Positions 6,863 through 43,963 of a DNA stretch of 64,000 bases are shown here, in pieces. The stretch is from the NCBI RefSeq assembly GCF_023343835.1, contig NC_064433.1, forward strand, positions 65,618,032-65,682,031, given 5' to 3'. The first letter of the stretch is position 1. The number at the start of each line of letters is the position of its first letter. The notes under the pieces were generated by a model. That model did no database searches. It was not told where the DNA came from and saw only the letters and a list, made by a program, of their open reading frames with translations. The stretch comes from Lagopus muta (lineage: Eukaryota; Chordata; Aves; Galliformes; Phasianidae). The translations under genes were made by a program, and so were the position numbers.

Positions 6863-6892
6863 CATAGTCCATTGCCTAAGTGCACTCTACAC
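6863..6892. repeat. Macrosatellite HOR copy 3, left fragment (split by the CAC array)
   Basis: The unit starts normally with CATAGTCCATTGCCTAAG then TGCACTCTACACCA. Where other copies continue TCCTCTGCACCATCC, this one runs into CCACCCTCTCACACACACC. The missing remainder of the same unit reappears at about 42,311. Confidence 0.9.
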
Positions 6893-7394
6893 CACCACCC
6901 TCTCACACACACCACCACCACCACCCTCTCACACACACCACCACCACCACCCTCTCACACACACCACCACCACCCTCTCACACCACCACCACCACCCTCC
7001 CACACACACCACCACCACCCTCTCACACACACCACCACCACCCTCTCACACACACCACCACCACCCTCCTCTCACACACACCACCACGACCACCACCACC
7101 CTCTCACACACACCACCACGACCACCACCACCCTCTAACACACACCACCACGACCACCACCACCCTCTAACACACACCACCACGACCACCACCACCCTCT
7201 AACACACACCACCACGACCGCCACCACCCTCTAACACACACCACCACGACCACCACCACCCTCTAAAACACACCAACACCACCATCACCATCCTCTAACA
7301 CACACCACCATCACCACCACCACTCTCTAACGCACACCACCACCAGCCTCTAACACACCACCAGCCTCAAACACACCACCAGCCTCTAACACAC
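6891..7394. repeat. Left edge of the satellite, CTCTCACACAC and CACGACC variants
   Basis: From 6,900 to about 7,117 the units read CCCTCTCACACACACC instead of CCCTCTAACACACACC, so the CTAAC core is absent here. From about 7,131 to 7,260 regular 32-bp units with CACCACGACCACCACCA follow. The CTCTCAC variant recurs elsewhere only at the junction near 19,745, which links the two places. Confidence 0.85.
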
Positions 7395-8596
7395 CACCAG
7401 CCTCTAACACACACCACCAGCCTCTAACACACACCACCAGCGCCACCACCACCCACTAACACACACCACCAGCACCACCAGTCTCTAACACACAACAGCA
7501 CAACCACCAACAACCCTCTAACACACACCTCCAACACCACCACCCTCTAACACACACCACCACCAGCACCACCCTCTAACACACACCACCACCAGCACCA
7601 CCACCCTCTAACAAACACCACCACCATCCTCTAAAAAACACCACCATCACCACCATCTAAAATACTCTACCACCACCACCACCACCACCACCTAAAATAC
7701 TCTACCACCACCACCACTGCCAGCCTCTAACACTCAGCACCACCACCACCACCCTCTAACACACACCACCACCACCCTCTAACACACACCACCACCACCA
7801 CCCACTAACACACACCACCACCACCAGCCTCTAACACACACCACCACCACCAGCCTCTAACACACACCACCACCACCAGCCTCTAACACACACCACCACC
7901 AGCCTCTAACACACACCACCACCACCACCACACACCACCACCACCACACACCACCACCACCACCACTCTTTAACACACTCCACCACCACCACCACCAACC
8001 CTCTAACATACACCACCACCACCACCCTCTAACAAACACCACCACCCTCTAACACACACCACCACCCTCTAACACACACCACCACCACCACCCTCTAACA
8101 CACACCACCACCACCGTCACCACCATCTAAAATACTCTACCACCACCACCACCACCACCCTCTAACACACACCACCACCTTCTAACACACACCAACAACC
8201 GCCACCGTATAACACACACCACCAACACCACCAACACACACCACCACCTCCACAACCATCTAAAATACACTACCACCACCACCGCCGCCACCCACTAACA
8301 TTCATCACCACCACCCCCTAAAACACACACCACCACCAGCCTCTAACACGCACCACCACCAGCCTCTAACACGCACCACCACCACCACCAGCCTCTAACA
8401 CGCACCACCACCACCACCAGCCTCTAACACGCACCACCACCACCACCAGCCTCTAACACGCACCACCACCACCACCAGCCTCTAACACGCACCACCACCA
8501 CCACCAGCCTCTAACACACACCACCACCACCACCAGCCTCTAACACACACCACCACCACCACCAGCCTCTAACACACACCACCACCACCACCAGCC

Positions 8597-8785
8597 TCTA
8601 ACACGCACCACCAGCCTCTAACACACACCACCAGCCTCTAACACACACCACCAGCCTCTAACACACACCACCAGCCTCTAACACACACCACCAGCCTCTA
8701 ACACACACCACCAGCCTCTAACACACACCACCAGCCTCTAACACACACCACCAGCCTCTAACACACACCACCAGCCTCTAACACA
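8597..8785. repeat. Homogeneous 20-bp run, CCTCTAACACACACCACCAG
   Basis: About nine near-identical 20-bp units in a row after a stretch of longer units with CACCACCACCACCAG. The duplicate run lies at 20,820-21,025. Each unit contains the CTAAC core and ends in CAG. Confidence 0.9.
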
Positions 8786-9521
8786 CACCACCACCACCAC
8801 CACTCTTTAACACACTCCACCACCACCACCACTCTTTAACACACTCCACCACCACCACAACCAACCCTCTAACACACACCTCCAACACCACCACCCTCTA
8901 ACACACACCACCACCACCCTCTAACACACACCACCACGACCACCACCACCATCTAAAATACTCTACCACCACCACCACCGCCACCCTCTAACACTCAGCA
9001 CCACCACCACCACCCTCTAACACACACCACCACCTTCTAACACACACCAACAACCGCCACCGTATAACACACACACACCACCACCAACACACACCACCAC
9101 CTCCACAACCATCTAAAATACACTACCACCACCACCGCCGCCACCCACTAACATTCACCACCACCACCACCCCCTAACACGCACCACCACCACCACCACC
9201 CTCTAACACGCACCACCACCACCACTCTCTAACACACACCACCACCACGCACACAACCTCCCTCTAACACACACCACCACGAACACCACCACCACCACCC
9301 TCTAACACACAACACCACGACAACCACCACCCTCTAACACACAACACCATCACCACCCTCTAACACACAACACCACCCCCTAACACAAACCACCACCACC
9401 CACTAACACAAACTACCACCACCACCACCCACTAACACACACCACCACCACCGTCACCATCCTCTAACACACACCACCATCACCACCACCACTCTCTAAC
9501 GCACACCAGCACCACCACCAG

Positions 9522-9721
9522 CCTCTGACACACACCACCAGCCTCTGACACACACCACCAGCCTCTGACACACACCACCAGCCTCTGACACACACCACCA
9601 GCCTCTGACACACACCACCAGCCTCTGACACACACCACCAGCCTCTGACACACACCACCAGCCTCTGACACACACCACCAGCCTCTGACACACACCACCA
9701 GCCTCTGACACACAGCACCAG
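9522..9721. repeat. 20-bp run with CTCTGACAC variant (10 units)
   Basis: Ten units of CCTCTGACACACACCACCAG. They differ from the common form by A to G in CTAAC, giving CTGAC. The duplicate at 21,764-21,943 has nine units. Because 20 is not a multiple of three, all three antisense frames stay open and cycle with a 20-residue period, which creates long but meaningless frames. Confidence 0.92.
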
Positions 9722-12700
9722 CACCACCACCACCCACTAACAGAAACCACCAGCACCACCACTCTCTAACACACACCACCACCAGCACCACCCTCTAACA
9801 CACACCACCACGACCACCACCACCCTCTAACACACACCACCACCACCCTCTAAAAAACACCACCACCACCACCATCTAAAATACTCTACCACCACCACCA
9901 CCACCTCCTAAAATACTCTACCATCACCACCACTGCCAGCCTCTAACACTCAGCACCACCACGCACACAACCTCCCTCTAACACACACCACCACGAGCAC
10001 CACGACCACCACCCTCTAACACAAAACACCATCACCACCACCACACTCTAACACACAACACCACCAGCCCGTAACACACACCACCATGACCAGCACCACC
10101 ACGAGCCTCTAACACACACCACCTCGAGGCTCTAATACACACCAACACCACCCTCTAACACACACAACCGCCACCACCCTCTAACACACACCACCGCCAC
10201 CACCACCACCATCTAAAATACACTACCACAACCACCACCACCACCACCCTCTAACACACACCACCACCACCACCCTCTAACACACACCACCACCACCACC
10301 CTCTAACACACACCACCACCACCACCCTCTAACACACACCACCACCACCACCCTCTAACACACACCACCACCACCACCCTCTAACACACACCACCACCAC
10401 CACCCTCTAACACACACCACCACCACCCTCTAACACACACCACCACCACCCTCTAACACACACCACCACCACCCTCTAACACACACCACCACCACCACCA
10501 GCCTCTAGCACACACCACCACCACCACCAGCCTCTGACACACACCACCAGCCTCTGACACACACCACCAGCACCACCACCACCCACTAACACACACCACC
10601 AGCACCACCACTCTCTAACACACAACACCACCACCACCAACAACCCTCTAAGACACACCTCCAACACCACCACCCTCTAACACACACCACCACCAGCACC
10701 ACCCTCTAACACACACCACCACGACCACCACCACCCTCTAACACACACCACCACGAACACCACCATCACCACCCTCTAACACACACCACCACGACCACCA
10801 CCCTCTAACACAAAACACCATCACCACCGCCACACGCTAACACACAACAACACCACCAGCCTATAACACACACCACCATGACCAGCACCACCACGAGCCT
10901 CTAACACACACCACCTCGAGACTCTAACACACACCACCACGAGCCTCTAACACACACCACCACCACCACCAACACACACCACCACCCTCTAACACACAGC
11001 ACCACCACCACCAGCCTCTAACACACACCACCACCACCAGCCTCTAACACACACCACCACCACCAACACTCTTTAACACACACCACCACCACCACCCTTG
11101 AACACACACCACCACCACCAACCTCTAACACACACCACCACAACCATCCTCTAACACACACCACCACAACCATCCTCTAACACACACCACCACAACCATC
11201 CTCTAACACACACCACCACAACCATCCTCTAACACACACCACCACCACCACCATCTAAAATACACTACCAGCACCACCACCGCCACCCACTAACATTCAC
11301 CACCACCACCACCCTCTAACACACACCACCACCAGCCTCTAACACACAACACCACCAACTCCAACACCCTCTAACAAACACCACTTCCACCACCCTGCAA
11401 CACACACCACCACAAGCAAAAACCTCTAACACACACCACCACGACCACCACCACCCTCTAACATACACCATCACCACCACCACCACCCTCTAACACTCAG
11501 CACCACCACCACCACCCTCTAACACTCAGCACCACCTTCTAACACACACCACCACCACCCTCTAACACACACCACCGCCACCAACACACACCACCACCTC
11601 CACAACCATCTAAAATACACTACCACCACCACCGCCGCCACCCACTAACACTCACCACCACCACCACCCCCTAACACGCACCACCACCACCACCACCCTC
11701 TAACACGCACCACCACCACCACTCTCTAACACACACCACCACCACGCACACAACCTCCCTCTAACACACACCACCACGAACACCACCACCACCACCCTCT
11801 AACACACAACACCACGACAACCACCACCCGCTAACACACACCACCACCACCACCACCCACTAACACACTCCACCACCACCACCACCATCCTCTAACACAC
11901 ACCACCATCACCACCACCACTCTCTAACGCACACCACCACCAGCCTCTAACACACACCACCAGCCTCTAACACACACCACCAGCCTCTAACACACACCAC
12001 CAGCCTCTAACACACACCACCAGCCTCTAACACACACCACCAGCCTCTAACACACACCACCAGCGCCACCACCACCCACTAACACACACCACCAGCACCA
12101 CCAGTCTCTAACACACAACACCACAACCACCAACAACCCTCTAAAACACACCTCCAACACCACCACCCTCTAACACACACCACCACAAGCACCACCCTCT
12201 AACACACACCACCACGACCACCACCACCCTCTAACACACACCACCACCACCCTGTAAAAAACACCACCACCACCACCATCTAAAATACTCTACCACCAAC
12301 ACCACCACCACCTAAAATACTCTACCATCACCACCACTGCCAGCCTCTAACACTCAGCACCACCACCACCACCCTCTATCACACACCTCCACCACCACCA
12401 CCCTCTAACACAAAACACCATCACCACCACCACACTCTAACACACAACAACACCACCTGCCGGTAACACACACGACCATGACCAGCACCACCACCAGCCT
12501 CTAACACACACCACCACCACCACCCTCTATCACACACCTCCACCACCACCACCCTCTAACACAAAACACCATCACCACCACCACACTCTAACACAAAACA
12601 CCATCACCACCACCACACTCTAACACACAACACCACCACCTGCCGGTAACACACACGACCATGACCAGCACCACCACCAGCCTCTAACACACACCACCAC

Positions 12701-13224
12701 CACCACCCACTAACACACACCACCACCACCACCCACTAACAAACACCACCACCACCACCAGCCTCTAACACACACCACCACCAACACCAGCCTCTAACAC
12801 ACACCACCACCACACACCACCACCACCAACACACACCACCACCACCACCACTCTTTAACACACTCCACCACCACCACCACCAACCCTCTAACACACACCT
12901 CCAACACCACCACCCTCTAACACACACCACCACCACCACCCTCTAACACACACCACCACCACCACCCTCTAACACACACCACCACCACCACCCTCTAACA
13001 CACACCACCACCACCACCCTCTAACACACACCAACAACCGCCACCATATAACACACACCACCACCAACACACACCACCACCTCCACAACCATCTAAAATA
13101 CACTACCACCACCACCGCCGCCACCCACTAACATTCACCACCACCACCAGCCTCTAACACTCACCACCACCAGCCTCTAACACTCACCACCACCACCAGC
13201 CTCTAACACTCACCACCACCACCA

Positions 13225-13544
13225 GCCTCTAACACGCACCACCAGCCTCTAACACGCACCACCAGCCTCTAACACGCACCACCAGCCTCTAACACGCACC
13301 ACCAGCCTCTAACACGCACCACCAGCCTCTAACACGCACCACCAGCCTCTAACACGCACCACCAGCCTCTAACACGCACCACCAGCCTCTAACACGCACC
13401 ACCAGCCTCTAACACGCACCACCAGCCTCTAACACGCACCACCAGCCTCTAACACGCACCACCAGCCTCTAACACGCACCACCAGCCTCTAACACGCACC
13501 ACCAGCCTCTAACACGCACCACCAGCCTCTAACACGCACCACCA
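13225..13544. repeat. 20-bp run with CACGC variant (16 units)
   Basis: Sixteen units of CCTCTAACACGCACCACCAG, each carrying one CpG, so CpGs are spaced exactly 20 bp apart. The duplicated run at 25,463-25,722 has 13 units. Upstream is the recurrent module TAAAATACACTACCACCACC then GCCGCCACCCACTAACATTC. Confidence 0.92.
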
Positions 13545-14504
13545 CCACCACCAGCCTCTAACACACACCACCACCACCAGCCTCTAACACACTCCACCAC
13601 CACCACCACTCTTTAACACACTCCACCACCACCACCACTCTTTAACACACTCCACCACCACCACCACCAACCCTCTAACACACACCTCCAACACCACCAC
13701 CCTCTAACACACACCACCACCATCCTCTAACACACACCACCACGACCACCACCACCATCTAAAACACTCTACCACCACCACCACCACCAACCCTCTAACA
13801 CACACCTCCACCACCACCACCCTCTAACACAAAACACCATCACCACCACCACACTCTAACACACAACACCACCACCTGCCGGTAACACACACGACCATGA
13901 CCAGCACCACCACCAGCCTCTAACACACACCACCACCACCACCCACTAACACACACCACCACCACCACCAGCCTCTAACACACACCACCACCACCACCAG
14001 CCTCTAACACACACCACCACCACACACCACCACCACCACGCACCACCACCACCAACACGCACCACCACCACCACCACTCTTTAACACACTCCACCACCAC
14101 CACCACCAACCCTCTAACACACACCTCCAACACCACCACCCTCTAACACACACCACCACCACCACCCTCTAACACACACCACCACCACCACCCTCTAACA
14201 CACACCACCACCACCACCCTCTAACACACCACCACCACCCTCTAACACACACCAACAACCGCCACCGTATAACACACACCACCACCACCACCAACACACA
14301 CCACCACCTCCACAACCATCTAAAATACACTACCACCACCGCCGCCACCCACTAACATTCACCACCACCACCAGCCTCTAACACTCACCACCACCACCAG
14401 CCTCTAACACTCACCACCACCACCAGCCTCTAACACACACCACCACCACCAGCCTCTAACACACACCACCACCACCAGCCTCTAACACACACCACCACCA
14501 CCAG

Positions 14505-14804
14505 CCTCTAACACGCACCACCAGCCTCTAACACGCACCACCAGCCTCTAACACGCACCACCAGCCTCTAACACGCACCACCAGCCTCTAACACGCACCA
14601 CCAGCCTCTAACACGCACCACCAGCCTCTAACACGCACCACCAGCCTCTAACACGCACCACCAGCCTCTAACACGCACCACCAGCCTCTAACACGCACCA
14701 CCAGCCTCTAACACGCACCACCAGCCTCTAACACGCACCACCAGCCTCTAACACGCACCACCAGCCTCTAACACGCACCACCAGCCTCTAACACGCACCA
14801 CCAC
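14505..14804. repeat. 20-bp CACGC run (15 units)
   Basis: Fifteen CpG-bearing 20-bp units. The counterpart at 26,705-27,044 has 17. The run is preceded by the same GCCGCCACCCACTAACATTC module as its neighbours and followed by units with CACACTCC. Confidence 0.92.
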
Positions 14805-15422
14805 CACCACCAGCCTCTAACACACTCCACCACCACCACCAGCCTCTAACACACTCCACCACCACCACCAGCCTCTAACACACTCCACCACCACCACCAC
14901 TCTTTAACACACTCCACCACCACCACCACCAACCCTCTAACACACACCTCCAACACCACCACCCTCTAACACACACCACCACCACCACCCTCTAACACAC
15001 ACCACCACCACCACCCTCTAACACACACCACCACCACCACCCTCTAACACACCACCACCACCCTCTAACACACACCAACAACCGCCACCGTATAACACAC
15101 ACCACCACCACCAACACACACCACCACCTCCACAACCATCTAAAATACACTACCACCACCGCCGCCACCCACTAACATTCACCACCACCACCAGCCTCTA
15201 ACACTCACCACCACCAGCCTCTAACACTCACCACCACCAGCCTCTAACACTCACCACCACCACCAGCCTCTAACACTCACCACCACCACCAGCCTCTAAC
15301 ACTCACCACCACCACCAGCCTCTAACACACACCACCACCACCAGCCTCTAACACACACCACCACCACCAGCCTCTAACACACACCACCACCACCAGCCTC
15401 TAACACACACCACCACCACCAG

Positions 15423-15682
15423 CCTCTAACACGCACCACCAGCCTCTAACACGCACCACCAGCCTCTAACACGCACCACCAGCCTCTAACACGCACCACC
15501 AGCCTCTAACACGCACCACCAGCCTCTAACACGCACCACCAGCCTCTAACACGCACCACCAGCCTCTAACACGCACCACCAGCCTCTAACACGCACCACC
15601 AGCCTCTAACACGCACCACCAGCCTCTAACACGCACCACCAGCCTCTAACACGCACCACCAGCCTCTAACACGCACCACCAC
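15423..15682. repeat. 20-bp CACGC run (13 units)
   Basis: Thirteen CpG-bearing units. The counterpart at 27,637-27,936 has 15 units. It lies in the shortest of the local composite modules (about 0.82 kb before it, about 1.33 kb after). Confidence 0.9.
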
Positions 15683-16758
15683 CACCACCAGCCTCTAACA
15701 CACACCACCACCACCACCAGCCTCTAACACACTCCACCACCACCACCACTCTTTAACACACTCCACCACCACCACCACTCTTTAACACACTCCACCACCA
15801 CCACCACCAACCCTCTAACACACACCTCCAACACCACCACCCTCTAACACACACCACCACCATCCTCTAACACACACCACCACGACCACCACCACCATCT
15901 AAAACACTCTACCACCACCACCACCACCAACCCTCTAACACACACCTCCACCACCACCACCCTCTAACACAAAACACCATCACCACCACCACACTCTAAC
16001 ACACAACACCACCACCTGCCGGTAACACACACGACCATGACCAGCACCACCACCAGCCTCTAACACACACCACCACCACCACCCACTAACACACACCACC
16101 ACCACCACCAGCCTCTAACACACACCACCACCACCACCAGCCTCTAACACACACCACCACCACACACCACCACCACCACGCACCACCACCACGCACCACC
16201 ACCACCAACACGCACCACCACCACCACCACTCTTTAACACACTCCACCACCACCACCACCAACCCTCTAACACACACCTCCAACACCACCACCCTCTAAC
16301 ACACACCACCACCACCACCCTCTAACACACACCACCACCACCACCCTCTAACACACACCACCACCACCACCCTCTAACACACCACCACCACCCTCTAACA
16401 CACACCAACAACCGCCACCGTATAACACACACCACCACCACCAACACACACCACCACCTCCACAACCATCTAAAATACACTACCACCACCGCCGCCACCC
16501 ACTAACATTCACCACCACCACCAGCCTCTAACACTCACCACCACCACCAGCCTCTAACACTCACCACCACCACCAGCCTCTAACACTCACCACCACCACC
16601 AGCCTCTAACACACACCACCACCACCAGCCTCTAACACACACCACCACCACCAGCCTCTAACACACACCACCACCACCAGCCTCTAACACACACCACCAC
16701 CACCAGCCTCTAACACACACCACCACCACCAGCCTCTAACACACACCACCACCACCAG

Positions 16759-17078
16759 CCTCTAACACGCACCACCAGCCTCTAACACGCACCACCAGCC
16801 TCTAACACGCACCACCAGCCTCTAACACGCACCACCAGCCTCTAACACGCACCACCAGCCTCTAACACGCACCACCAGCCTCTAACACGCACCACCAGCC
16901 TCTAACACGCACCACCAGCCTCTAACACGCACCACCAGCCTCTAACACGCACCACCAGCCTCTAACACGCACCACCAGCCTCTAACACGCACCACCAGCC
17001 TCTAACACGCACCACCAGCCTCTAACACGCACCACCAGCCTCTAACACGCACCACCAGCCTCTAACACGCACCACCAC
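16759..17078. repeat. 20-bp CACGC run (16 units)
   Basis: Sixteen CpG-bearing units. The counterpart at 28,961-29,280 also has 16, so this run has not changed length since the 12-kb duplication. Confidence 0.9.
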
Positions 17079-18941
17079 CACCACCAGCCTCTAACACACA
17101 CCACCACCACCACCAGCCTCTAACACACTCCACCACCACCACCACTCTTTAACACACTCCACCACCACCACCACTCTTTAACACACTCCACCACCACCAC
17201 CACCAACCCTCTAACACACACCTCCAACACCACCACCCTCTAACACACACCACCACCATCCTCTAACACACACCACCACGACCACCACCACCATCTAAAA
17301 CACTCTACCACCACCACCACCACCAACCCTCTAACACACACCTCCACCACCACCACCCTCTAACACAAAACACCATCACCACCACCACACTCTAACACAC
17401 AACACCACCACCTGCCGGTAACACACACGACCATGACCAGCACCACCACCAGCCTCTAACACACACCACCACCACCACCCACTAACACACACCACCACCA
17501 CCACCAGCCTCTAACACACACCACCACCACCACCAGCCTCTAACACACACCACCACCACACACCACCACCACCACGCACCACCACCACCAACACGCACCA
17601 CCACCACCACCACTCTTTAACACACTCCACCACCACCACCACCAACCCTCTAACACACACCTCCAACACCACCACCCTCTAACACACACCACCACCACCA
17701 CCCTCTAACACACACCACCACCACCACCCTCTAACACACACCACCACCACCACCCTCTAACACACCACCACCACCCTCTAACACACACCAACAACCGCCA
17801 CCGTATAACACACACCACCACCACCACCAACACACACCACCACCTCCACAACCATCTAAAATACACTACCACCACCGCCGCCACCCACTAACATTCACCA
17901 CCACCACCAGCCTCTAACACTCACCACCACCAGCCTCTAACACTCACCACCACCAGCCTCTAACACTCACCACCACCACCAGCCTCTAACACTCACCACC
18001 ACCACCAGCCTCTAACACACACCACCACCACCAGCCTCTAACACACACCACCACCACCAGCCTCTAACACACACCACCAGCCTCTAACACACACCACCAG
18101 CCTCTAACACACACCACCAGCCTCTAACACACACCACCAGCCTCTAACACACACCACCAGCCTCTAACACACACCACCAGCCTCTAACACACACCACCAG
18201 CCTCTAACACACACCACCAGCCTCTAACACACACCACCACCACCCTCTAACACACACCACCACGACCACCACCACCATCTAAAATACTCTACCACCACCA
18301 CCACCGCCACCCTCTAACACACACCACCACCTTCTAACACACACCAACAACCGCCACCGTATAACACACACCACCACCACCAACACACACCACCACCTCC
18401 ACAACCATCTAAAATACACTACCACCACCACCACCGCCACCCTCTAACACTCAGCACCACCACCACCACCCTCTAACACACACCACCACCTTCTAACACA
18501 CACCAACAACCGCCACCGTATAACACACACCACCACCACCAACACACACCACCACCTCCACAACCATCTAGAATACACTACCACCACCACCGCCGCCACC
18601 CACTAACATTCACCACCACCACCACCCCCTAACACGCACCACCACCACCACCACCACCCTCTAACACGCACCACCACCACCACTCTCTAACACACACCAC
18701 CACCACGCACACAACCTCCCTCTAACACACACCACCACGAACACCACCACCACCACCCTCTAACACACAACACCATCACCACCCTCTAACACACAACACC
18801 ACCCCCTAACACAAACCACCACCACCCACTAACACAAACTACCACCACCACCACCCACTAAGACACACCACCACCACCGTCACCATCCTCTAACACACAC
18901 CACCATCACCACCACCACTCTCTAACGCACACCAGCACCAC

Positions 18942-19250
18942 CACCAGCCTCTGACACACACCACCACCACCACCAGCCTCTGACACACACCACCACCACC
19001 ACCAGCCTCTGACACACACCACCAGCCTCTGACACACACCACCAGCCTCTGACACACACCACCAGCCTCTGACACACACCACCAGCCTCTGACACACACC
19101 ACCAGCCTCTGACACACACCACCAGCCTCTGACACACACCACCAGCCTCTGACACACACCACCAGCCTCTGACACACACCACCAGCCTCTGACACACACC
19201 ACCAGCCTCTGACACACACCACCAGCCTCTGACACACACCACCAGCCTCT
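18942..19250. repeat. 20-bp run with CTCTGACAC variant, long form
   Basis: The first units are extended to 26-29 bp by extra ACC triplets, followed by about a dozen 20-bp CCTCTGACACACACCACCAG units that revert to CTAAC at the right end. The counterpart at 31,155-31,430 is about two units shorter and has a CTAAC unit interrupting the CTGAC run. Confidence 0.88.
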
Positions 19251-28700: not shown

Positions 28701-31700
28701 CACACCACCACCTCCACAACCATCTAAAATACACTACCACCACCGCCGCCACCCACTAACATTCACCACCACCACCAGCCTCTAACACTCACCACCACCA
28801 CCAGCCTCTAACACTCACCACCACCACCAGCCTCTAACACTCACCACCACCACCAGCCTCTAACACACACCACCACCACCAGCCTCTAACACACACCACC
28901 ACCACCAGCCTCTAACACACACCACCACCACCAGCCTCTAACACACACCACCACCACCAGCCTCTAACACGCACCACCAGCCTCTAACACGCACCACCAG
29001 CCTCTAACACGCACCACCAGCCTCTAACACGCACCACCAGCCTCTAACACGCACCACCAGCCTCTAACACGCACCACCAGCCTCTAACACGCACCACCAG
29101 CCTCTAACACGCACCACCAGCCTCTAACACGCACCACCAGCCTCTAACACGCACCACCAGCCTCTAACACGCACCACCAGCCTCTAACACGCACCACCAG
29201 CCTCTAACACGCACCACCAGCCTCTAACACGCACCACCAGCCTCTAACACGCACCACCAGCCTCTAACACGCACCACCACCACCACCAGCCTCTAACACA
29301 CACCACCACCACCACCAGCCTCTAACACACTCCACCACCACCACCACTCTTTAACACACTCCACCACCACCACCACTCTTTAACACACTCCACCACCACC
29401 ACCACCAACCCTCTAACACACACCTCCAACACCACCACCCTCTAACACACACCACCACCATCCTCTAACACACACCACCACGACCACCACCACCATCTAA
29501 AACACTCTACCACCACCACCACCACCAACCCTCTAACACACACCTCCACCACCACCACCCTCTAACACAAAACACCATCACCACCACCACACTCTAACAC
29601 ACAACACCACCACCTGCCGGTAACACACACGACCATGACCAGCACCACCACCAGCCTCTAACACACACCACCACCACCACCCACTAACACACACCACCAC
29701 CACCACCAGCCTCTAACACACACCACCACCACCACCAGCCTCTAACACACACCACCACCACACACCACCACCACCACGCACCACCACCACCAACACGCAC
29801 CACCACCACCACCACTCTTTAACACACTCCACCACCACCACCACCAACCCTCTAACACACACCTCCAACACCACCACCCTCTAACACACACCACCACCAC
29901 CACCCTCTAACACACACCACCACCACCACCCTCTAACACACCACCACCACCACCCTCTAACACACCACCACCACCCTCTAACACACACCAACAACCGCCA
30001 CCGTATAACACACACCACCACCACCACCAACACACACCACCACCTCCACAACCATCTAAAATACACTACCACCACCGCCGCCACCCACTAACATTCACCA
30101 CCACCACCAGCCTCTAACACTCACCACCACCAGCCTCTAACACTCACCACCACCAGCCTCTAACACTCACCACCACCACCAGCCTCTAACACTCACCACC
30201 ACCACCAGCCTCTAACACACACCACCACCACCAGCCTCTAACACACACCACCACCACCAGCCTCTAACACACACCACCAGCCTCTAACACACACCACCAG
30301 CCTCTAACACACACCACCAGCCTCTAACACACACCACCAGCCTCTAACACACACCACCAGCCTCTAACACACACCACCAGCCTCTAACACACACCACCAG
30401 CCTCTAACACACACCACCACCACCCTCTAACACACACCACCACGACCACCACCACCATCTAAAATACTCTACCACCACCACCACCGCCACCCTCTAACAC
30501 ACACCACCACCTTCTAACACACACCAACAACCGCCACCGTATAACACACACCACCACCACCAACACACACCACCACCTCCACAACCATCTAAAATACACT
30601 ACCACCACCACCACCGCCACCCTCTAACACTCAGCACCACCACCACCACCCTCTAACACACACCACCACCTTCTAACACACACCAACAACCGCCACCGTA
30701 TAACACACACCACCACCACCAACACACACCACCACCTCCACAACCATCTAGAATACACTACCACCACCACCGCCGCCACCCACTAACATTCACCACCACC
30801 ACCACCCCCTAACACGCACCACCACCACCACCACCACCCTCTAACACGCACCACCACCACCACTCTCTAACACACACCACCACCACGCACACAACCTCCC
30901 TCTAACACACACCACCACGAACACCACCACCACCACCCTCTAACACACAACACCACGACAACCACCACCCTCTAACACACAACACCATCACCACCCTCTA
31001 ACACACAACACCACCCCCTAACACAAACCACCACCACCCACTAACACAAACTACCACCACCACCACCCACTAAGACACACCACCACCACCGTCACCATCC
31101 TCTAACACACACCACCATCACCACCACCACTCTCTAACGCACACCAGCACCACCACCAGCCTCTGACACACACCACCACCACCACCAGCCTCTGACACAC
31201 ACCACCACCACCACCAGCCTCTGACACACACCACCAGCCTCTGACACACACCACCAGCCTCTGACACACACCACCAGCCTCTGACACACACCACCAGCCT
31301 CTGACACACACCACCAGCCTCTGACACACACCACCAGCCTCTGACACACACCACCAGCCTCTAACACACACCACCAGCCTCTGACACACACCACCAGCCT
31401 CTGACACACACCACCAGCCTCTAACACACACCACCAGCCTCTAACACACACCACCAGCCTCTAACACACACCTCCAGCCTCTAACACACACCACAACGAC
31501 CACCAACACCATCTAAAATACTCTACCACCACCACCAACAACAACCCTCTAACACACACCTCCAACACCACCACCCTCTAACACACACCACCACCACCCT
31601 CTAACACACACCACCACCACCCTCTAACACACACCACCACGACCACCACCACCATCTAAAATACTCTACCACCACCACCACCGCCACCCTCTAACACACA

Positions 31701-31910
31701 CCACCACCTTCTAACACACACCAACAACCGCCACCGTATAACACACACCACCACCACCAACACACACCACCACCTCCACAACCATCTAAAATACACTACC
31801 ACCACCACCGCCGCCACCCACTAACATTCACCACCACCACCACCCCCTAACACGCACCACCACCACCACCACCACCCTCTAACACGCACCACCACCACGC
31901 ACACAACCTC
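19765..31910. repeat. 12.1-kb block, copy 2 of the tandem duplication
   Basis: Colinear with 7,395-19,738. It lacks about 148 bp present in copy 1 at roughly 7,610-7,760 (the stretch with two TAAAATACTCTACC motifs). It differs in the number of 20-bp units in several runs. Unlike copy 1, which is cut at ACAACCTC (19,738), this copy runs on past the equivalent point (31,910) into CCTCTAACACAC, the usual continuation. Confidence 0.9.
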
Positions 31911-34900
31911 CCTCTAACACACACCACCACGAACACCACCACCACCACCCTCTAACACACAACACCACGACAACCACCACCCTCTAACACACAACACCAC
32001 GACAACCACCACCCTCTAACACACAACACCATCACCACCCTCTAACACACAACACCACCCCCTAACACAAACCACCACCACCCACTAACACAAACTACCA
32101 CCACCACCACCCACTAAGACACACCACCACCACCGTCACCATCCTCTAACACACACCACCATCACCACCACCACTCTCTAACGCACACCAGCACCACCAC
32201 CAGCCTCTGACACACACCACCACCAACACCAGCCTCTGACACACACCACCAGCCTCTGACACACACCACCAGCCTCTGACACACACCACCAGCCTCTGAC
32301 ACACACCACCAGCCTCTGACACACACCACCAGCACCACCACCACCCACTAACAGAAATCAACAGCACCACCACTCTCTAACACACACCACCACCAGCACC
32401 ACCCTCTAACATACACCATCACCACCACCACCACCACCCTCTAACACACACCACCACCTTCTAACACACACCACCACCACCCTCTAACACACACCACCAC
32501 TACCAACACACACCACCACCTCCACAACCATCTAAAATACACTACCACCACCACCGCCGCCACCCACTAACACTCACCACCACCACCCTCTAACACGCAC
32601 CACTACCACCACCACCCTCTAACACGCACCACCACCACCACCACTCTCTAACACACAACACCACCACGCACACAACCTCCCTCTAACACACACCACCACG
32701 AACACCACCACCACCACCCTCTAACACACAACACCACGACAACCACCACCCGCTAACACACACCACCACCACCACCACCCACTAACACACTCCACCACCA
32801 CCACCACCCTCTAAAACACACCACCACCACCATCACCATCCTCTAACACACACCACCATCACCACCACCACTCTCTAACGCACACCACCACCAGCCTCTA
32901 ACACACACCACCAGCCTCTAACACACACCACCAGCGCCACCACCACCCACTAACACACACCACCAGCACCACCAGTCTCTAACACACAACACCACAACCA
33001 CCAACAACCCCCTAAAACACACCTCCAACACCACCACCCTCTAACACACACCACCACAAGCACCACCCTCTAACACACACCACCACGACCACCACCACCC
33101 TCTAACACACACCACCACCATCCTCTAAAAAACACCACCACCACCACCACCTAAAATACTCTAGCACCACCACCACCACCACCTAAAATACTCTACCACC
33201 ACCACCACTGCCAGCCTCTAACACTCAGCACCACCACCACCACCCTCTAACACACACCACCACCACCACCGTCTATCACACACATCCACCACCACCACCC
33301 TCTAACACAAAACACCATCACCACCACCACACTCTAACACACAGCAACACCACCGGCCGGTAACACACACGACCATGACCAGCACCACCACCAGCCTCTA
33401 ACACACACCACCACCACCACCCTCTATCACACACCTGCACCACCACCACCCTCTAACACAAAACACCATCACCACCACCACACTCTAACACACAACACCA
33501 CCACCTGCCGGTAACACACACGACCATGACCAGCACCACCACCAGCCTCTAACACACACCACCACCAGCCTCTAACACACACCACCACCAGCCTCTAACA
33601 CACACCACCACCAGCCTCTAACACACACCACCACCAGCCTCTAACACACACCACCACCACCAGCCTCTAACACACACCACCACCACCACCCACTAACACA
33701 CACCACCACCACCACCCACTAACACACACCACCACCACCACCCACTAACACACACCACCACCACCACCAGCCTCTAACACACACCACCACCACCACCAGC
33801 CTCTAACACACACCACCACCACACACCACCACCACCACGCACCACCACTACCAACACACACCACCACCACCACCACTCTTTAACACACTCCACCACCACC
33901 ACCAACCCTCTAACACACACCTCCAACACCACCACCCTCTAACACACACCACCACCACCACCCTCTAACACACACCACCACCACCACCCTCTAACACACA
34001 CCACCACCACCACCCTCTAACACACACCACCACCACCACCCTCTAACACACACCACCACCACCACCCTCTAACACACACCAACAACCGCCACCGTATAAC
34101 ACACACCACCACCACCACCACCACACACCACCACCTCCACAACCATCTAAAATACACTACCACCACCACCGCCGCCACCCACTAACATTCACCACCACCA
34201 CCAGCCTCTAACACTCACCACCACCAGCCTCTAACACTCACCACCACCAGCCTCTAACACTCACCACCACCAGCCTCTAACACTCACCACCACCAGCCTC
34301 TAACACTCACCACCACCAGCCTCTAACACTCACCACCACCACCCTCTAACACTCACCACCACCACCTTCTAACACACACCACCACCACCCTCTAACACAC
34401 ACCACCACCACCCTCTAACACACACCACCACCACCAACACACACCACCACCTCCACAACCATCTAAAATACACTACCACCACCGCCGCCGCCACCCACTA
34501 ACACTCACCACCACCACCCTCTAACACGCACCACTACCACCACCACCGTCTAACACGCACCACCACCACCACCACTCTCTAACACACACCACCACCACGC
34601 ACACAACCTCCCTCTAACACACACCACCACGAACACCACCACCACCACCCTCTAACACACAACACCACGACAACCACCACCCGCTAACACACACCACCAC
34701 CACCACCACCCACTAACACACTCCACCACCACCACCACCATCCTCTAACACACACCACCATCACCACCACCACTCTCTAACGCACACCACCACCAGCCTC
34801 TAACACACACCACCAGCCTCTAACACACACCACCAGCGCCACCACCACCCACTAACACACACCACCAGCACCACCAGTCTCTAACACACAACACCACAAC

Positions 34901-35266
34901 CACCAACAACCCTCTAAAACACACCTCCAACACCACCACCCTCTAACACACACCACCACAAGCACCACCCTCTAACACACACCACCACGACCACCACCAC
35001 CCTCTAACACACACCACCACCATCCTCTAGAAACACCACCACCACCACCACCTAAAATACTCTACCACCACCACCACCACTGCCAGCCTCTAACACTCAG
35101 CACCACCACCACCACCCTCTAACACACACCACCACCACCACCCTCTATCACACACCTCCACCACCACCACCCTCTAACACAAAACACCATCACCACCACC
35201 ACACTCTAACACACAACACCACCACCTGCCGGTAACACACACGACCATGACCAGCACCACCACCAG

Positions 35267-35703
35267 CCTCTAACACACACCACCACCAGCCTCTAACACA
35301 CACCACCACCAGCCTCTAACACACACCACCACCAGCCTCTAACACACACCACCACCAGCCTCTAACACACACCACCACCAGCCTCTATCACACACCACCA
35401 CCAGCCTCTAACACACACCACCACCAGCCTCTAACACACACCACCACCAGCCTCTAACACACACCACCACCAGCCTCTAACACACACCACCACCAGCCTC
35501 TAACACACACCACCACCAGCCTCTAACACACACCACCACCAGCCTCTAACACACACCACCACCAGCCTCTAACACACACCACCACCAGCCTCTAACACAC
35601 ACCACCACCAGCCTCTAACACACACCACCACCAGCCTCTAACACACACCACCACCAGCCTCTAACACACACCACCACCAGCCTCTAACACACACCACCAC
35701 CAC
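35267..35703. repeat. 23-bp run (19 units)
   Basis: Nineteen units of CCTCTAACACACACCACC plus ACCAG, i.e. the 20-bp unit with one extra ACC. One unit near 35,384 has CTATCAC instead of CTAACAC. The run starts directly after a CACCTGCCGGTAACACAC marker, and a shorter run of the same type occupies 33,547-33,665. Confidence 0.9.
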
Positions 35704-36354
35704 CACCCACTAACACACACCACCACCACCACCCACTAATACACACCACCACCACCACCCACTAACACACACCACCACCACCAGCCTCTAACACACACCA
35801 CCACCAGCAGCCTCTAACACACACCACCACCACCACCACCACGCACCACCACTACCAACACACACCACCACCACCACCACTCTTTAACACACTCCACCAC
35901 CACCACCAACCCTCTAACACACACCTCCAACACCACCACCCTCTAACACACACCACCACCACCACCCTCTAACACACACCACCACCACCACCCTCTAACA
36001 CACCACCACCACCCTCTAACACACACCAACAACCGCCACCGTATAACACACACCACCACCACCACCACACACCACCACCTCCACAACCATCTAAAATACA
36101 CTACCACCACCACCGCCGCCACCCACTAACATTCACCACCACCACCAGCCTCTAACACTCACCACCACCACCAGCCTCTAACACTCACCACCACCACCAG
36201 CCTCTAACACTCACCACCACCACCAGCCTCTAACACTCACCACCACCACCAGCCTCTAACACTCACCACCACCACCAGCCTCTAACACTCACCACCACCA
36301 CCAGCCTCTAACACTCACCACCACCACCAGCCTCTAACACACACCACCACCACC

Positions 36355-36605
36355 AGCCTCTAACACACACCACCAGCCTCTAACACACACCACCAGCCTC
36401 TAACACACACCACCAGCCTCTAACACACACCACCAGCCTCTAACACACACCACCAGCCTCTAACACACACCACCAGCCTCTAACACACACCACCAGCCTC
36501 TAACACACACCACCAGCCTCTAACACACACCACCAGCCTCTAACACACACCACCAGCCTCTAACACACACCACCAGCCTCTAACACACACCACCAGCCTC
36601 TAACA
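36355..36605. repeat. 20-bp run, CCTCTAACACACACCACCAG
   Basis: About twelve identical 20-bp units, preceded by a run of CTCTAACACTCACCACCACC units. It is followed by the CACTCTTTAACACACTCC motif, as in the 8.8-kb and 21.0-kb regions. Confidence 0.9.
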
Positions 36606-37287
36606 CACACCACCACCACCACCACTCTTTAACACACTCCACCACCACCACCACTCTTTAACACACTCCACCACCACCACCACCAACCCTCTAACACACA
36701 CCTCCAACACCACCACCCTCTAACACACACCACCACCACCCTCTAACACACACCACCACGACCACCACCACCATCTAAAATACTCTACCACCACCACCAC
36801 CGCCACCCTCTAACACTCAGCACCACCACCACCACCCTCTAACACACACCACCACCTTCTAACACACACCAACAACCGCCACCGTATAACACACACCACC
36901 ACCACCAACACACACCACCACCTCCACAACCATCTAAAATACACTACCACCACCACCGCCGCCACCCACTAACATTCACCACCACCACCACCCTCTAACA
37001 TGCACCACCACCACCACTCTCTAACACACACCACCACCACGCACACAACCTCCCTCTAACACACACCACCACGAACACCACCACCACCACCCTCTAACAC
37101 ACAACACCACGACAACCACCACCCTCTAACACACAACACCACGACATCCACCCTCTAACACACAACACCACCCCCTAACACAAACCACCGCCACCCACTA
37201 AGACACACCACCACCACCGTCACCATCCTCTAACACACACCACCATCACCACCACCACTCTCTAACGCACACCAGCACCACCACCAG

Positions 37288-37500
37288 CCTCTGACACACA
37301 CCACCAGCCTCTGACACACACCACCAGCCTCTGACACACACCACCAGCCTCTGACACACACCACCAGCCTCTGACACACACCACCAGCCTCTGACACACA
37401 CCACCAGCCTCTGACACACACCACCAGCCTCTGACACACACCACCAGCCTCTGACACACACCACCAGCCTCTGACACACACCACCAGCCTCTGACACACA
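37288..37500. repeat. 20-bp run with CTCTGACAC variant
   Basis: About eleven identical units. The left side matches the sequence preceding the 9,522 run (CTCTAACGCACACCAGCACC). The right side jumps to CACCACCACCCTCTAAAAAACA, so the run's right boundary differs from that of the 9.5-kb and 21.8-kb copies. Confidence 0.88.
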
Positions 37501-39149
37501 CCACCACCACCCTCTAAAAAACACCACCACCACCACCATCTAAAATACTCTACCACCACCACCACCTAAAATACTCTACCATCACCACCACTGCCAGCCT
37601 CTAACACTCAGCACCACCACCACCACCCTCTAAAACACACCACCACCACCACCCTCTAACACACACCACCACCACGCACACAACCTCCCTCTAACACACA
37701 CCACCACGAACACCACGACCACCACCCTCTAACACAAAACACAATCACCACCACCACACTCTAACACACAACAACCACCACCAGCCTGTAACACACACCA
37801 CCATGACCAGCACCACCACGAGCCTCTAACACACACCACCTCGAGACTCTAACACACACCACCACGAGCCTCTAACACAAACCACCACCAGCCTCTAACA
37901 TACACCACCACCAGCCTCTAATATACACCACCACCAGCCTCTAACACACACCACCACCACCACCCTCTAACACACACCACCACCACCACCCTCTAACACT
38001 CACCACCACCACCACCACCCTCTAACACGCACCACCACCACCAACCTCTAACACACACCACCACAACCATCCTCTAAAACACACCACCACCACCACCACC
38101 TAAAATACACTGCCAGCACCACCACCGCCACCCACTAACATTCACCACCACCACCACCCTCTAACACTCACCACCACCACCCTCTAACACACACCACCAC
38201 CACCACCACCCTCTAACACACAACACCATCACCACCACGCTCTAACACACAACACCACCAGCCTGTAACACACACCACCACCAGCCTCTAACACACAACA
38301 CCACCACCTCCAACAACCTCTAACACACAACACCTCCACCACCCTGCAACAAACACCAACACGACCCTGCAACACACACCACCACAAGCACAAACCTCTA
38401 ACACACACCACCACGACCACCACCACCCTCTAACATACACCATCATGACCACCACCACCTTCTAACACTCACCACCACCACCACCGCCACCCTCTAACAC
38501 ACACCACCACCGCCACCGTATAACACACACCACCACCTTCTAACACACACCACCACCACCACCGCCACCCTCTAACACACACCACCACCGCCACCGTATA
38601 ACACACACCACCACCACCAACACACACCACCACCTCCACAACCATCTAAAATACACTACCACCACCACCGCCGCCACCCACTAACATTCACCACCACCAC
38701 CACCCTCTAAAACGCACCACCACCACCCTCTAACACGCACCACCACCACACACCACCACCACGCACCACCACCACCAACCCTCTAACACACACCTCCAAC
38801 ACCACCACCCTCTAACACACACCACCACCACCACCCTCTAACACACACCACCACCACCACCCTCTAACACACACCACCACCACCACCCTCTAACACACCA
38901 CCACCACCCTCTAACACACACCAACAACCGCCACCGTATAACACACACCACCACCACCACCAACACACACCACCACCTCCACAACCATCTAAAATACACT
39001 ACCACCACCACCGCCGCCACCCACTAACACTCACCACCACCACCAGCCTCTAACACTCACCACCACCACCAGCCTCTAACACTCACCACCACCACCAGCC
39101 TCTAACACACACCACCACCACCAGCCTCTAACACACACCACCACCACCA

Positions 39150-39505
39150 GCCTCTGACACACACCACCACCACCAGCCTCTGACACACACCACCACCACC
39201 AGCCTCTGACACACACCACCACCACCAGCCTCTGACACACACCACCACCACCAGCCTCTGACACACACCACCACCACCAGCCTCTGACACACACCACCAC
39301 CACCAGCCTCTGACACACACCACCAGCCTCTGACACACACCACCAGCCTCTGACACACACCACCAGCCTCTGACACACACCACCAGCCTCTGACACACAC
39401 CACCAGCCTCTGACACACACCACCAGCCTCTGACACACACCACCAGCCTCTGACACACACCACCAGCCTCTGACACACACCACCAGCCTCTGACACACAC
39501 CACCA
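39150..39505. repeat. 26-bp then 20-bp CTCTGACAC run
   Basis: Six or seven 26-bp units (20-bp unit plus two ACC triplets) give way to about ten 20-bp units with the same CTGAC variant. The abrupt change of length with unchanged base variant shows that triplet number and point variants spread independently. Confidence 0.88.
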
Positions 39506-40196
39506 GCACCACCACCACCCACTAACACACACCACCACGACCACCAGCACCCTCTAACATACACCATCATGACCACCACCACCTTCTAACACACACCACC
39601 ACCTTCTAACACACACCACCACCACCACCGCCACCCTCTAACACACACCACCACCGCCACCGTATAACACACACCACCACCTTCTAACACACACCACCAC
39701 CACCACCGCCACCCTCTAACACACACCACCACCGCCACCGTATAACACACACCACCACCACCAACACACACCACCACCTCCACAACCATCTAAAATACAC
39801 CACCACCACCACCGCCGCCACCCACTAACATTCACCACCACCACCACCCTCTAAAACGCACCACCACCGCCACCACCCTCTAACACGCACCACCACCACC
39901 ACTCTCTAACACACACCACCACCACGCACACAACCTCCCTCTAACACACACTACCACGAACACCACCACCACCACCCTCTAACACACAACACCACGACAA
40001 CCACCACCCTCTAACTCACAACACCATCACCACCCTCTAACACACAGCACCACCCCCTAAAACAAACCACCACCACCCACTAACACACACCACCACCACC
40101 ACCACCCACTAACACACACCACCACCACCGTCACCATCCTCTAACACACACCACCATCACCACCACCACTCTCTAACGCACACCAGCACCACCACC

Positions 40197-40480
40197 GGCC
40201 TCTGACACACACCACCAGCCTCTGACACACACCACCAGCCTCTGACACACACCACCAGCCTCTGACACACACCACCAGCCTCTGACACACACCACCAGCC
40301 TCTGACACACACCACCAGCCTCTGACACACACCACCAGCCTCTGACACACACCACCAGCCTCTGACACACACCACCAGCCTCTGACACACACCACCAGCC
40401 TCTGACACACACCACCAGCCTCTGACACCCCACCAGCCTCTGACACACACCACCAGCTTCTGACACACACCACCAGCGCC
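40197..40480. repeat. 20-bp CTCTGACAC run with a 4-bp-deleted unit
   Basis: About fourteen 20-bp units. One unit near 40,425 reads CTCTGACACCCCACCAG, shorter and with a CCC; another near 40,456 has CAGCTTCTGAC. These private changes mark the right end of the run. Confidence 0.85.
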
Positions 40481-41989
40481 ACCACCACCCACTAACACAC
40501 ACCACCAGCACCACCAGTCTCTAACACACAACAGCACAACCACCAACAACCCTCTAACACACACCTCCAACACCACCACCCTCTAACACACACCACCACC
40601 AGCACCACCACCCTCTAACACACACCACCACCACCCTGTAAAAAACACCACCACCACCATCTAAAATACTCTACCACCACCACCACCACCACCTAAAATA
40701 CTCTACCATCACCACCACTGCCAGCCTCTAACACTCAGCACCACCACCACCACCCTCTAACACACACCACCACCACGCACACAACCTCCCTCTAACACAC
40801 ACCACCACGAACACCACGACCACCACCCTCTAACACAAAACACCATCACCACCACCACACTCTAACACACAACAACACCACCAGCCTGTAACACACACCA
40901 CCATGACCAGCACCACCACGAGCCTCTAACACACACCACCTCGAGCCTCTAACACACACCACCTCGAGCCTCTAACACACACCACCACCAGCCTCTAACA
41001 CACACCACCACCAGCCTCTAACACACACCACCACCAGCCTCTAACACACACCACCACCAGCCTCTAACACACACCACCACCACCACCCACTAACATCTAC
41101 CACCACCACCACCCTCTAACACGTACCACCACCACCACCACCCTCTAACACTCACCACCACCACCACCACCCTCTAACACGCACCACCACCACCAACCTC
41201 TAACACACACCACCACAACCATCCTCTAAAACACACCACCACCACCACCATCTAAAATACACTACCAGCACCACCACCGCCACCCACTAACATTCACCAC
41301 CACCACCACCCTCTAACACTCACCACCACCACCACCCTCTAACACGCACCACCACCACCACCCTCTAACACGCACCACCACCACCACCCTCTAACACGCA
41401 CCACCATCACCACCACCACGCTCTAACACACACCAACACCACCAGCCTCTAAAACACACCACCACCAGCCTCTAACACACACCACCACCACCACCAGCCT
41501 CTAACACACACCACCTCCACCACCCTGCAACACACACCAACACGACCCTGCAACACACACCACCACAAGCACAAACCTCTAACACACACCACCACGACCA
41601 CCACCACCCTCTGACATACACCATCACGACCAACACCACCCTCTAACACACACCACCACGACCACCACCACCATCTAAAATACTCTACCACCACCACCAC
41701 CTCCACCCTCTAACACTCAGCACCACCACCACCACCCTCTAACACACACCACCACCTTCTAACACACACCACCACCACCACCCTCTAACACACACCACCA
41801 CCAGCACCACCCTCTAACACACACCATCACGACCACCACCACCCTCTAACACACACCAACACCATCCTCTAAAAAACACCACCACCACCACCATCTAAAA
41901 TACTCTACCACCACCACCACCACCACCTAAAATACTCTACCATCACCACCACTGCCAGCCTCTAACACTCAGCACCACCACCACCACAC

Positions 41990-42310
41990 TCTAACACACA
42001 CCACCACCACCACCACCCTCTAACATGCACCACCACCACCACCACCCTCTAACACGCTCCACCACCCCCACCACCCTCTAACACACTCCACAACCCCCAC
42101 CCTCTAACACACACCACCACCCCCACCCTCTAACACACACCACAACCATCCCCAACCTCTAACACACACCACAAACCCCACCCTCTAACAAACATGACAA
42201 ACCCCAACCTCTAACACACACCACAACCACCACCCTCTATCACACATCACCAGAACCACCCCCCACTAACAGACACCAACACCACCAACCTCTAACACTC
42301 ACCATCCTCT
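41990..42310. repeat. Decayed right edge of the satellite
   Basis: Units diverge progressively (CCACCCCCACC, CCACAACCATCC, AACATGACAAACC, CTCTATCACACATC). The final unit, CTCTAACACTCACCATCCTC, merges with the macrosatellite sequence. The last CTAAC (42,292-42,296) followed by TCCTCTCCACAG (ending 42,316) makes a strong 3' splice-site-like arrangement. Confidence 0.85.
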
Positions 42311-43963
42311 CCACAGTGCAGCGTCGGAGATCCGTTTGGTTCAGCTTCTCAGCATCATCCACCAGAGAAACGACTCTTTCTGTTTCCCCAGCATTGTCTT
42401 TTGGCAGACTGCCCTCTCCAGCACCACCCGTTGTGGGAGTAACCCTCTCCAGTGCCTTCACCAGTGTCGCCTGTCACAGGAGCGCCCTCTCCATTGCATC
42501 TCCAGCATCATCCATCACGGCAGTACCCGCTCCATTTTCCTCTCAAGCTACGCCTGCAGACGTGTCCAATGCTTGCGCTTTTCCAGTGTCGCCTGTGGTG
42601 GTGCGCTGTCTTTTTAGGCTTCTCCAGTGACATCCTTCATGGGAGCAGCCTCTTGATTGCCCTCTTCAGCATTCTCCATCATGTGATCACCCTCTCCGTT
42701 GCCACCTCCAGTGCCATGCGTTGCAGGAGCACTCTCTTGGTTGAGCTCTCCAGCACCATGTGTCATGGTTGCTCCGTCTTCATTGCCTTCCCTTCGAGTG
42801 TGCACCGTTCCTGGCATCATCTGTGGCATCGTTCTTCTGGTGAGCACCGCCTCTAGCATAGTCCTTACTATGAGCAGCACCTTTTGTAGTGTTGCTAGCA
42901 TCGTGTATGTGGTGAGCACCGTCTCCAGCACCAGCTCTGGTTTAATCTTTCAGAATCGCACTTCCTAGAGCACTGCCTCTGGCATCGTCCATTGGCGAAG
43001 CGCCTACTCCAACAACATCTACAGCATCATCCGTTGAGAAAGCTCCTTTTTGTGCAGCTTGACAGCATCAACCACCAGACGAGCGCTGCTTTCTGTATCT
43101 CCAGCACTGTCCCTAGGCAGACCGCCCTTTCCAGCATCACCTGTCCCGGGAGCAACCGTCTCCAGCATAGTCCATCATGAGACCAACCTCTCAGTTGCCC
43201 TTCATAGCATCTTCTCCCAAGGGAGAGCACTCTCATTCGCATTCTCCAATTTCATCCATCAGACGAGCACCCTCTCCTTCTGCTTATCTAGCATTCACCT
43301 TCACGGGAGCACCCCCACCTTACGCTTCTCCTTTGTCGCCTGTCGTGGGAGCAAAGCCTCATGCTGCATTTTCAGCTGCATCTGCCATTGGAAGACCACA
43401 TCCTGCTGCTTCCTCAGCTTTGTTCACTGGAAAAGTTATGCGCCGCCCTGCTTCAGCAGCACTGCCTGTCTCAGGTGCCCCATCACCTTCTCTGTACTTC
43501 TGGAGTATGCCCTGTCAGGCACCGCCTCTAGCATCGTCGTTCTGATGTGTGCCATCTCCTGCACTACCTCTTCCCTTGTCCTTCTGGTGAGCACATCTAC
43601 GGTTTTGCCTTCATCTTTATCCTTCCAGTGAGCACCATCTCCGGTGCCGCCCCTTGCTTGGTCCTCCTGGTAAGCGCATCAGCAGAGCCACCAGTCCCAG
43701 AAGCGCCCAGGGCAGCGTGGATTGTTGCGGGAGCGCTGTTTATGGCCTCACGTGTGGCATCGTCCTTGTGGATGGTGCAATCTCCTGTGCTACCTGTGAC
43801 ATTGTCCTTCTGGCGAGCCATCTCCAGCACCGCCTCTTGCACTGTCCTGATTGTGAGCAGCATCTTTTGTTGTGCCACTGGCACTGTCTTTCTGGCGAGC
43901 ACCATCTCCTGCACCGCTTCAGTTTAATCGTTCTGATTATCGCTTTCGGCAGTGCCTCCTCTG
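42311..43963. repeat. Macrosatellite HOR copy 3, right fragment
   Basis: This is the continuation of the unit interrupted at 6,890. A diverged 30-bp stretch (TCGGAGATCCGTTTGG aligns with TGGGAGCTCCTTTCGG) leads into CAGCTTCTCAGCATCATCC at 42,342, equal to 5,242 in copy 2. From there 1,622 bp run to the next unit start. With the missing 68 bp of unit start this equals 1,690 bp, a normal length. It is type A (CTTTCAGAATCGCACTTCC near 42,950; CTCCCAAGGGAGAG near 43,214). Confidence 0.9.

Follow-up and report, generated by a model that had tools for sequence, protein, structure and literature searches.

Satellite origins are usually inferred long after the seed sequence has been lost. According to the accessible part of a study in Lathyrus sativus, satellites arose there from short tandem arrays located inside long terminal repeat (LTR) retrotransposons (Vondrak et al. 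2019, PMC7004042), and break-induced replication at microsatellites in human cells is reported to be accompanied by error-prone repair and mutagenised flanks (PMC11161834). The current work concerns a 64,000-nucleotide stretch of the Lagopus muta genome (assembly GCF_023343835.1, contig NC_064433.1, positions 65,618,032 to 65,682,031 of the forward strand; hereafter “the window”, whose own coordinates are used throughout), in which a CAC-rich array of 35,410 bp lies inside one unit of a 1.7-kb macrosatellite, at a short 12-bp repeat belonging to that unit. The best explanation, to which we assign a probability of about 0.72, is that this secondary satellite grew in situ from the 12-bp repeat of its host unit. 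No publication describing the locus was found by titles and abstract openings in a literature coverage that leaves out most subscription journals.

A CAC-rich array inside one macrosatellite unit

The host is a macrosatellite, i.e. a kilobase-sized unit repeated head-to-tail at one locus. A blastn unit map follows the 1.7-kb units on one strand from position 3,481 to approximately 74.6 kb, with diverged edges at both sides; the last unit is partial (88.6% identical) and the array of units ends 10.6 kb past the window, while 17 of the 19 array-free units measured are 1,690-1,728 bp long. The single-locus assignment is based on exact pattern searches of the 1.03-Gb assembly, where a unit 21-mer has 20 matches, all of them here, on one strand and with one in the host unit, and where 14 of 14 matches to a 24-mer of the 12-bp site fall at the macrosatellite locus. 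It is not based on a DNA search, which returned 8 places, all at this locus, and which missed most of the known units and so adds little. The host, unit 3, is located near the left edge of the macrosatellite:

3481 to 5170, + strand: macrosatellite unit 1, 1,690 bp, with a degenerate 12-bp site (blastn unit map, site list)
5171 to 6860, + strand: macrosatellite unit 2, 1,690 bp, with site CTCTACACCATC + CTCTGCACCATC (blastn unit map, site list)
6861 to 6894, + strand: left part of host unit 3, ending CACTCTACACCA (blastn unit map, excision alignment)
6895 to 42304, + strand: CAC-rich secondary satellite, 35,410 bp, anchored on CTCT (monomer counts, excision alignment)
42305 to 43962, + strand: right part of host unit 3, in register (blastn unit map, excision alignment)
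43963 to 64000, continuing past the window, + strand: macrosatellite units 4 onward (unit map, site list, 21-mer)

Both ends of the array coincide exactly with the host unit's short repeat. This unit agrees with its neighbours up to position 6894, where it closes with CACTCTACACCA, and picks up again at 42300 with CACCATCCTCT. An earlier note on this DNA, made from the sequence letters, had described copy 3 as normal through 6,890 and as resuming in register at 42,342; the normal start and the register stand, with the left match running on to 6894 and the right one beginning 42 bp earlier. Once 6895-42304 (35,410 bp) is excised, the host unit measures 1,692 bp, as do five other units, and its alignment with the unit at 50802-52493 is free of gaps, 1,636 of 1,692 positions being identical (56 mismatches); this bears out the expectation of a unit of about 1,690 bp with nothing lost. 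The excised host shows 6 gap positions against unit 2 and 13 against the unit at 43963-45665. Positions 42311-42341 are collinear and in register but divergent, and counting from 42300 the first 101 bases contain 20 differences from unit 2 and the next 199 bases 4. Alignment of both junctions with the other units, which the same note had proposed, finds each collinear with the macrosatellite units in the blastn map and in the excision alignment. No N occurs anywhere in the window.

The array consists of 52.5% C and 3.8% G, and is composed of CTCTAACACACACC(ACC)n monomers and their relatives, also characterised as being of the CAC/CTCTAACAC type. The commonest monomers, of 20, 26, 29, 32 and 23 bp, make up 880 of 1,174, and 749 of 916 simple monomers (both blocks of the internal duplication described below being counted) have a length of 2 modulo 3; the monomers therefore differ by triplets. 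The variant CTCTCA occurs 8 times in the first 1.5 kb of the array, twice near 19.7 kb and nowhere else in it. Four exact array motifs (17-27 bp) have 424, 391, 87 and 6 matches in the assembly, numbers which equal the counts inside the array, with none elsewhere in the assembly and none on the other strand; therefore, no donor array was found. The array is not a chance finding, as the 424 genome-wide matches to the 17-mer are the 424 in the array, all on one strand. Neither feature expected of an inserted mobile element, i.e. copies elsewhere together with a target-site duplication, was found: the four motifs are unique, and the CACCA bordering the array at either end is a motif of the array itself and therefore provides no evidence of target-site duplication or transposition. 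On the G-rich strand, 936 two-tetrad G-quadruplex (G4)-like motifs are predicted from sequence (26 per kb, versus 2.9 per kb in the macrosatellite), and three-tetrad G4-like motifs are absent from the array.

The 12-bp site and the array monomer

Copies of the 12-bp repeat, counted by hand from site listings, range from 2 to 15 whole copies among units. The range of 2-5 given previously holds for those window units that have the site (for example 5 copies at 45688 to 45750, + strand, in unit 45666, units being named by their start position), yet unit 1 (3481) carries a degenerate form only, and two units beyond the window exceed it: unit 69545 has 15 copies (site 69,545-69,754), the later of which show the variant CCGCACCATCCG, and unit 73233 has 6 copies with its own variant CTGTGCACCATC. 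Because these two units bear their own sequence variants, the site has probably expanded more than once. The exact word CTGCACCATCCG is present 0-3 times per unit in the window, and unit 2 (5171), the left neighbour of the host, has CTCTACACCATC + CTCTGCACCATC in its place.

The likeness between site and array monomer was scored in 18 of the 21 units (the host, 69545 and 73233 being excluded). The second 12-mer belongs to the CTCT class in 8 of these 18 units, and in all 8 the site is the unit's top match to the array monomer, scoring 10.5-11.5 versus 9.5 for the next-best place in the unit, with unit 2 highest; 0 of the 521-534 other windows per unit reach the site score. The site is the top match neither in the CGCT class (0 of 9) nor in degenerate unit 1. 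The host remnant is of the CTCT class, the 12-bp site and the array share strand and CTCT...CACCA register, and the first monomer at the array's left edge, CTCTACACCACCACC, represents an intermediate form. By a small margin, this supports descent of the array monomer from the 12-mer, and we infer the ancestry of the array from the 12-bp repeat on these sequence comparisons. Growth in situ is favoured because the insertion site is exact and gap-free, the motifs are unique, strand and register are shared, the seed is of the CTCT class, and other expansions have taken place at the same site.

Flanking substitutions, internal duplication and rival explanations

The host unit and its left neighbourhood carry an excess of substitutions on either side of the array, referred to here as the halo:

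6597 to 6860, unstranded: left halo, with 28 substitutions over the 300 alignment columns before the array (columns converted to positions by hand)
42311 to 42400, unstranded: right halo, with 11 substitutions over the 100 alignment columns after the array

The consensus used for this analysis was derived from 16 of 20 rows (3481, 5171, 6861 and 71393 being excluded), and gaps were not counted; the right row of the host began two bases late in the alignment, which produced two false gaps and missed one mismatch. The 28 substitutions on the left (9.3%) compare with 0-6 in the 19 other rows, and 26 of them are seen in no other unit; the 11 on the right compare with 0-4, 10 being private, so that 36 of 39 are private over both flanks together. 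Binomial probabilities within the same rows, for windows picked after viewing the data, are approximately 3e-9 (left) and 3e-5 (right). The halo comprises 16 transitions and 23 transversions, versus 173 and 149, respectively, in the 16 consensus units. Beyond the halo the substitution counts of the host drop to the range of the other rows, with an end branch for its right row of 0.020 versus a median of 0.0086 (largest 0.026); no branch is starred in a unit tree from which the halo columns were omitted, and the host unit is therefore neither placed nor dated by it. The unit with the 15-copy variable number tandem repeat (VNTR), 69545, has no halo (5 substitutions left and 0 right in the same windows), nor has unit 71393, in which an insertion of about 120 bp (72,415-72,533, beyond the window) lies between direct copies of TCCTTCTG and presumably resembles a CR1 3’ end.

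Two causes fit the halo: repair at an unstable array may be error-prone, or gene conversion may be lost beside a large heterology. The former permits a young array and the latter requires an old one. The approximately 35 unchanged columns adjoining the array on the left fit neither cause simply. There is a considerable, if less than even, chance that the array grew here but is old, predating the homogenisation of the present copies, with the halo lying beyond the reach of gene conversion. This is compatible with birth in situ and competes with it solely for the age of the array and the cause of the halo. It would account for the mostly private substitutions beside the array (28 of 300 columns and 11 of 100), and it accords with the position of the host near the left edge of the macrosatellite and with its above-median right end branch; however, the galliform neutral rate is near 1.9e-9 per site per year, at which a divergence of 9% needs some 25 million years, and the halo is just 100-300 bp wide, approximately.

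The array itself is dominated by a tandem duplication, the two blocks of which (D1 and D2) represent 69% of its length:

6895 to 7391, + strand: left edge of the array, with CTCTCACACACACC monomers (monomer counts, motif search)
7392 to 19737, + strand: block D1 of a 12.3-kb internal tandem duplication (alignment)
19738 to 19761, + strand: 24-nt piece separating D1 from D2, with no counterpart at the ends of the blocks, possibly filler (read by eye)
19762 to 31909, + strand: block D2 (alignment to D1)
31910 to 42304, + strand: older, diverged part of the array, 10.4 kb, mosaic (approximately 74-80% to D1, ambiguous alignments)

Over 11,993 aligned bases D1 and D2 differ by 2 substitutions and 17 gaps, or by 3 and 16 in a second alignment. 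The length of 9 of the 16 indels is 20, 23, 26 or a multiple (40, 52, 60), 2 are a single CAC, and the other 5 measure 148, 32, 14, 5 and 2 (32 also being a common monomer length). Inside D1 (13,200-17,900), sub-blocks recur at lags of about 0.9-3.5 kb with exact matches of up to 831 bp, and may represent nested earlier duplications. At the neutral rate given above, and provided that conversion has not reset the blocks, the duplication would be of the order of 0.1 million years old or less, and the 24-nt junction is somewhat more suggestive of end joining or template switching than of clean crossing over. The near-identical 12-kb blocks predict that array length differs among living birds. The description of the locus as a direct view of satellite birth is too strong, since a long history is already recorded inside the array, whose 10.4-kb part is older and whose 12.3-kb duplication is recent.

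The main doubt on the array is whether its length is partly an assembly artefact, D1 and D2 being two alleles set in tandem. We regard this as unlikely, even though the blocks differ at just 2-3 of 11,993 bases and the source, if the assembly is bLagMut1, is one diploid bird according to the accessible part of its description. The window is free of N, no exact repeat in the array is longer than 2,105 bp, a length that HiFi reads can span, and the 24-nt junction would not be expected of a simple allele join; in addition, the same partial description of bLagMut1 states that purge_dups was applied. Such a join would touch the size of the array and not its junctions.

An arrival from elsewhere, by transposition, reintegration of extrachromosomal circular DNA (eccDNA) or translocation, with landing at the 12-bp site by chance, appears improbable. 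The CACCA at both array ends and the modest likeness of the 12-mer to the monomer could be read in its favour, but the former belongs to the array itself, the four array motifs have no other exact copy in the assembly, and by position alone the 12-bp site would be hit in approximately 1-2% of cases (24-36 bp of 1,690; a rough estimate). Finally, assemblers are known to be at risk of error in long simple arrays, but junctions produced by assembly joins between two unrelated arrays are hardly credible in a window without N, given that the unit resumes in register with 0 gaps and that a chance join would not rebuild it.

The macrosatellite itself shows further features. A dispersed element of the Lathyrus retrotransposon type was rejected as an identity for the host unit, whose 21-mer is found at the macrosatellite locus only, and a protein-coding unit was likewise rejected, since translation of one unit (47394-49097) met stops in every one of the six frames. 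Pfam returned nothing significant for three translations (one match at E 0.12, under the cut-off) or for one flank open reading frame, and no Rfam family reached its gathering score within the window. An older 42/84-bp sub-repeat is present at 2848-3063, one frame of which gives PASSVVGAPTPSAS-like repeats with stops; the 1.7-kb unit seems to be built of such sub-repeats, and peptide pieces like PASSVVGAP suggest either a once-coding sequence or merely an in-phase 42/84-bp repeat. Past the last 1.7-kb unit, degenerate CTCCAGCATCATCCRTCRGGGGAGC-like sub-repeats run for more than 4 kb (74,600-79,000, beyond the window). On the + strand, 5’ of the macrosatellite, 1440-2500 contains by eye a possible promoter and first exons (GTGATGTCAC, a donor-like GTGAGT, and CAG before the ATG at 2409), and the whole macrosatellite domain may be transcribed.

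Proposed history and comparison with known systems

Growth of the array in situ would have started in one unit of the single-locus macrosatellite with the two-copy 12-bp repeat CTCTACACCATC-CTCTGCACCATC, where gains of CAC triplets and CA dinucleotides would have produced the CTCTA(AC)n(CAC)n monomer of 20-32 bp. The array would then have grown in place through single triplet or monomer steps, presumably by slippage, and through kilobase jumps, of which the 12.3-kb tandem duplication is the latest and which may reflect the repair of breaks, either by break-induced replication or by unequal exchange. The halo would result from repair at the unstable array, the alternative being that the flanks escape gene conversion.

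A number of points weigh against this account. The earlier note had proposed that a variable 12-bp repeat gave rise to the 35-kb array, and although site, uniqueness and seed class fit, the 12-mer resembles the monomer modestly and in part through base composition: in 10 of the 18 scored units the site does not rank first, and with a similar score in 60-bp windows (a scan in which the unit-2 row is invalid, its window having overrun 60 bp into the real array) 15 of 5,730 background windows reach at least 11, the best 15.5, and the 12-bp site is absent from the 8 best places of the excised host. The exact-motif search would miss a diverged donor, and comparisons are confined to the units of one assembly. 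Regarding the flanks, an old array around which sequence escapes homogenisation would fit the halo as well, and no change is found in the approximately 35 columns that adjoin the array on its left side, a pattern not expected from simple distance-dependent mutagenesis.

The combined proposition, in which a satellite derived from the 12-bp repeat is still growing by 12-kb jumps while error-prone repair mutates the neighbouring 100-300 bp, is somewhat doubtful as a whole and is offered tentatively. If true, one locus records the seed, the growth steps and the collateral mutation of a satellite. A mutagenic halo would provide a natural measure of the damage done to flanks by an unstable repeat, and a halo due to escape from gene conversion would measure the reach of homogenisation past an insertion.

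As far as their accessible descriptions extend, the chicken Z-macrosatellite, PO41 (41-bp repeats) and CNM (PMC7397634, PMC7151628) resemble this locus in being long tandem arrays on galliform chromosomes; the likeness is one of description only, and in those parts of the two sources no unit is described as containing a secondary array. Human minisatellite VNTRs and large tandem families (PMC8096271, PMC2588610) similarly share, in what is available of these reports, a variable repeat of minisatellite size and tandem families at kilobase scale, but are compared there between people or genome-wide, whereas the comparison here is between units of one assembly. The human break-induced replication system (PMC11161834) likewise involves an unstable repeat, whose flanks show base substitutions and template switches; in its accessible part, it concerns ectopic repeats and eccDNA in human cells with flanks at kilobase scale, whereas here a natural locus has a halo of approximately 100-300 bp. 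The closest precedent would be Lathyrus (PMC7004042), where, as the accessible part relates, a short tandem repeat within a longer repeated element also led to a long satellite array. In that plant a dispersed retrotransposon is the host and nine satellites have this origin, whereas here the host is a single-locus tandem macrosatellite of which 1 in 20 units has a long array. As the host is itself tandem, its 19 array-free sister units act as internal controls for the seed, the exact site and the local divergence.

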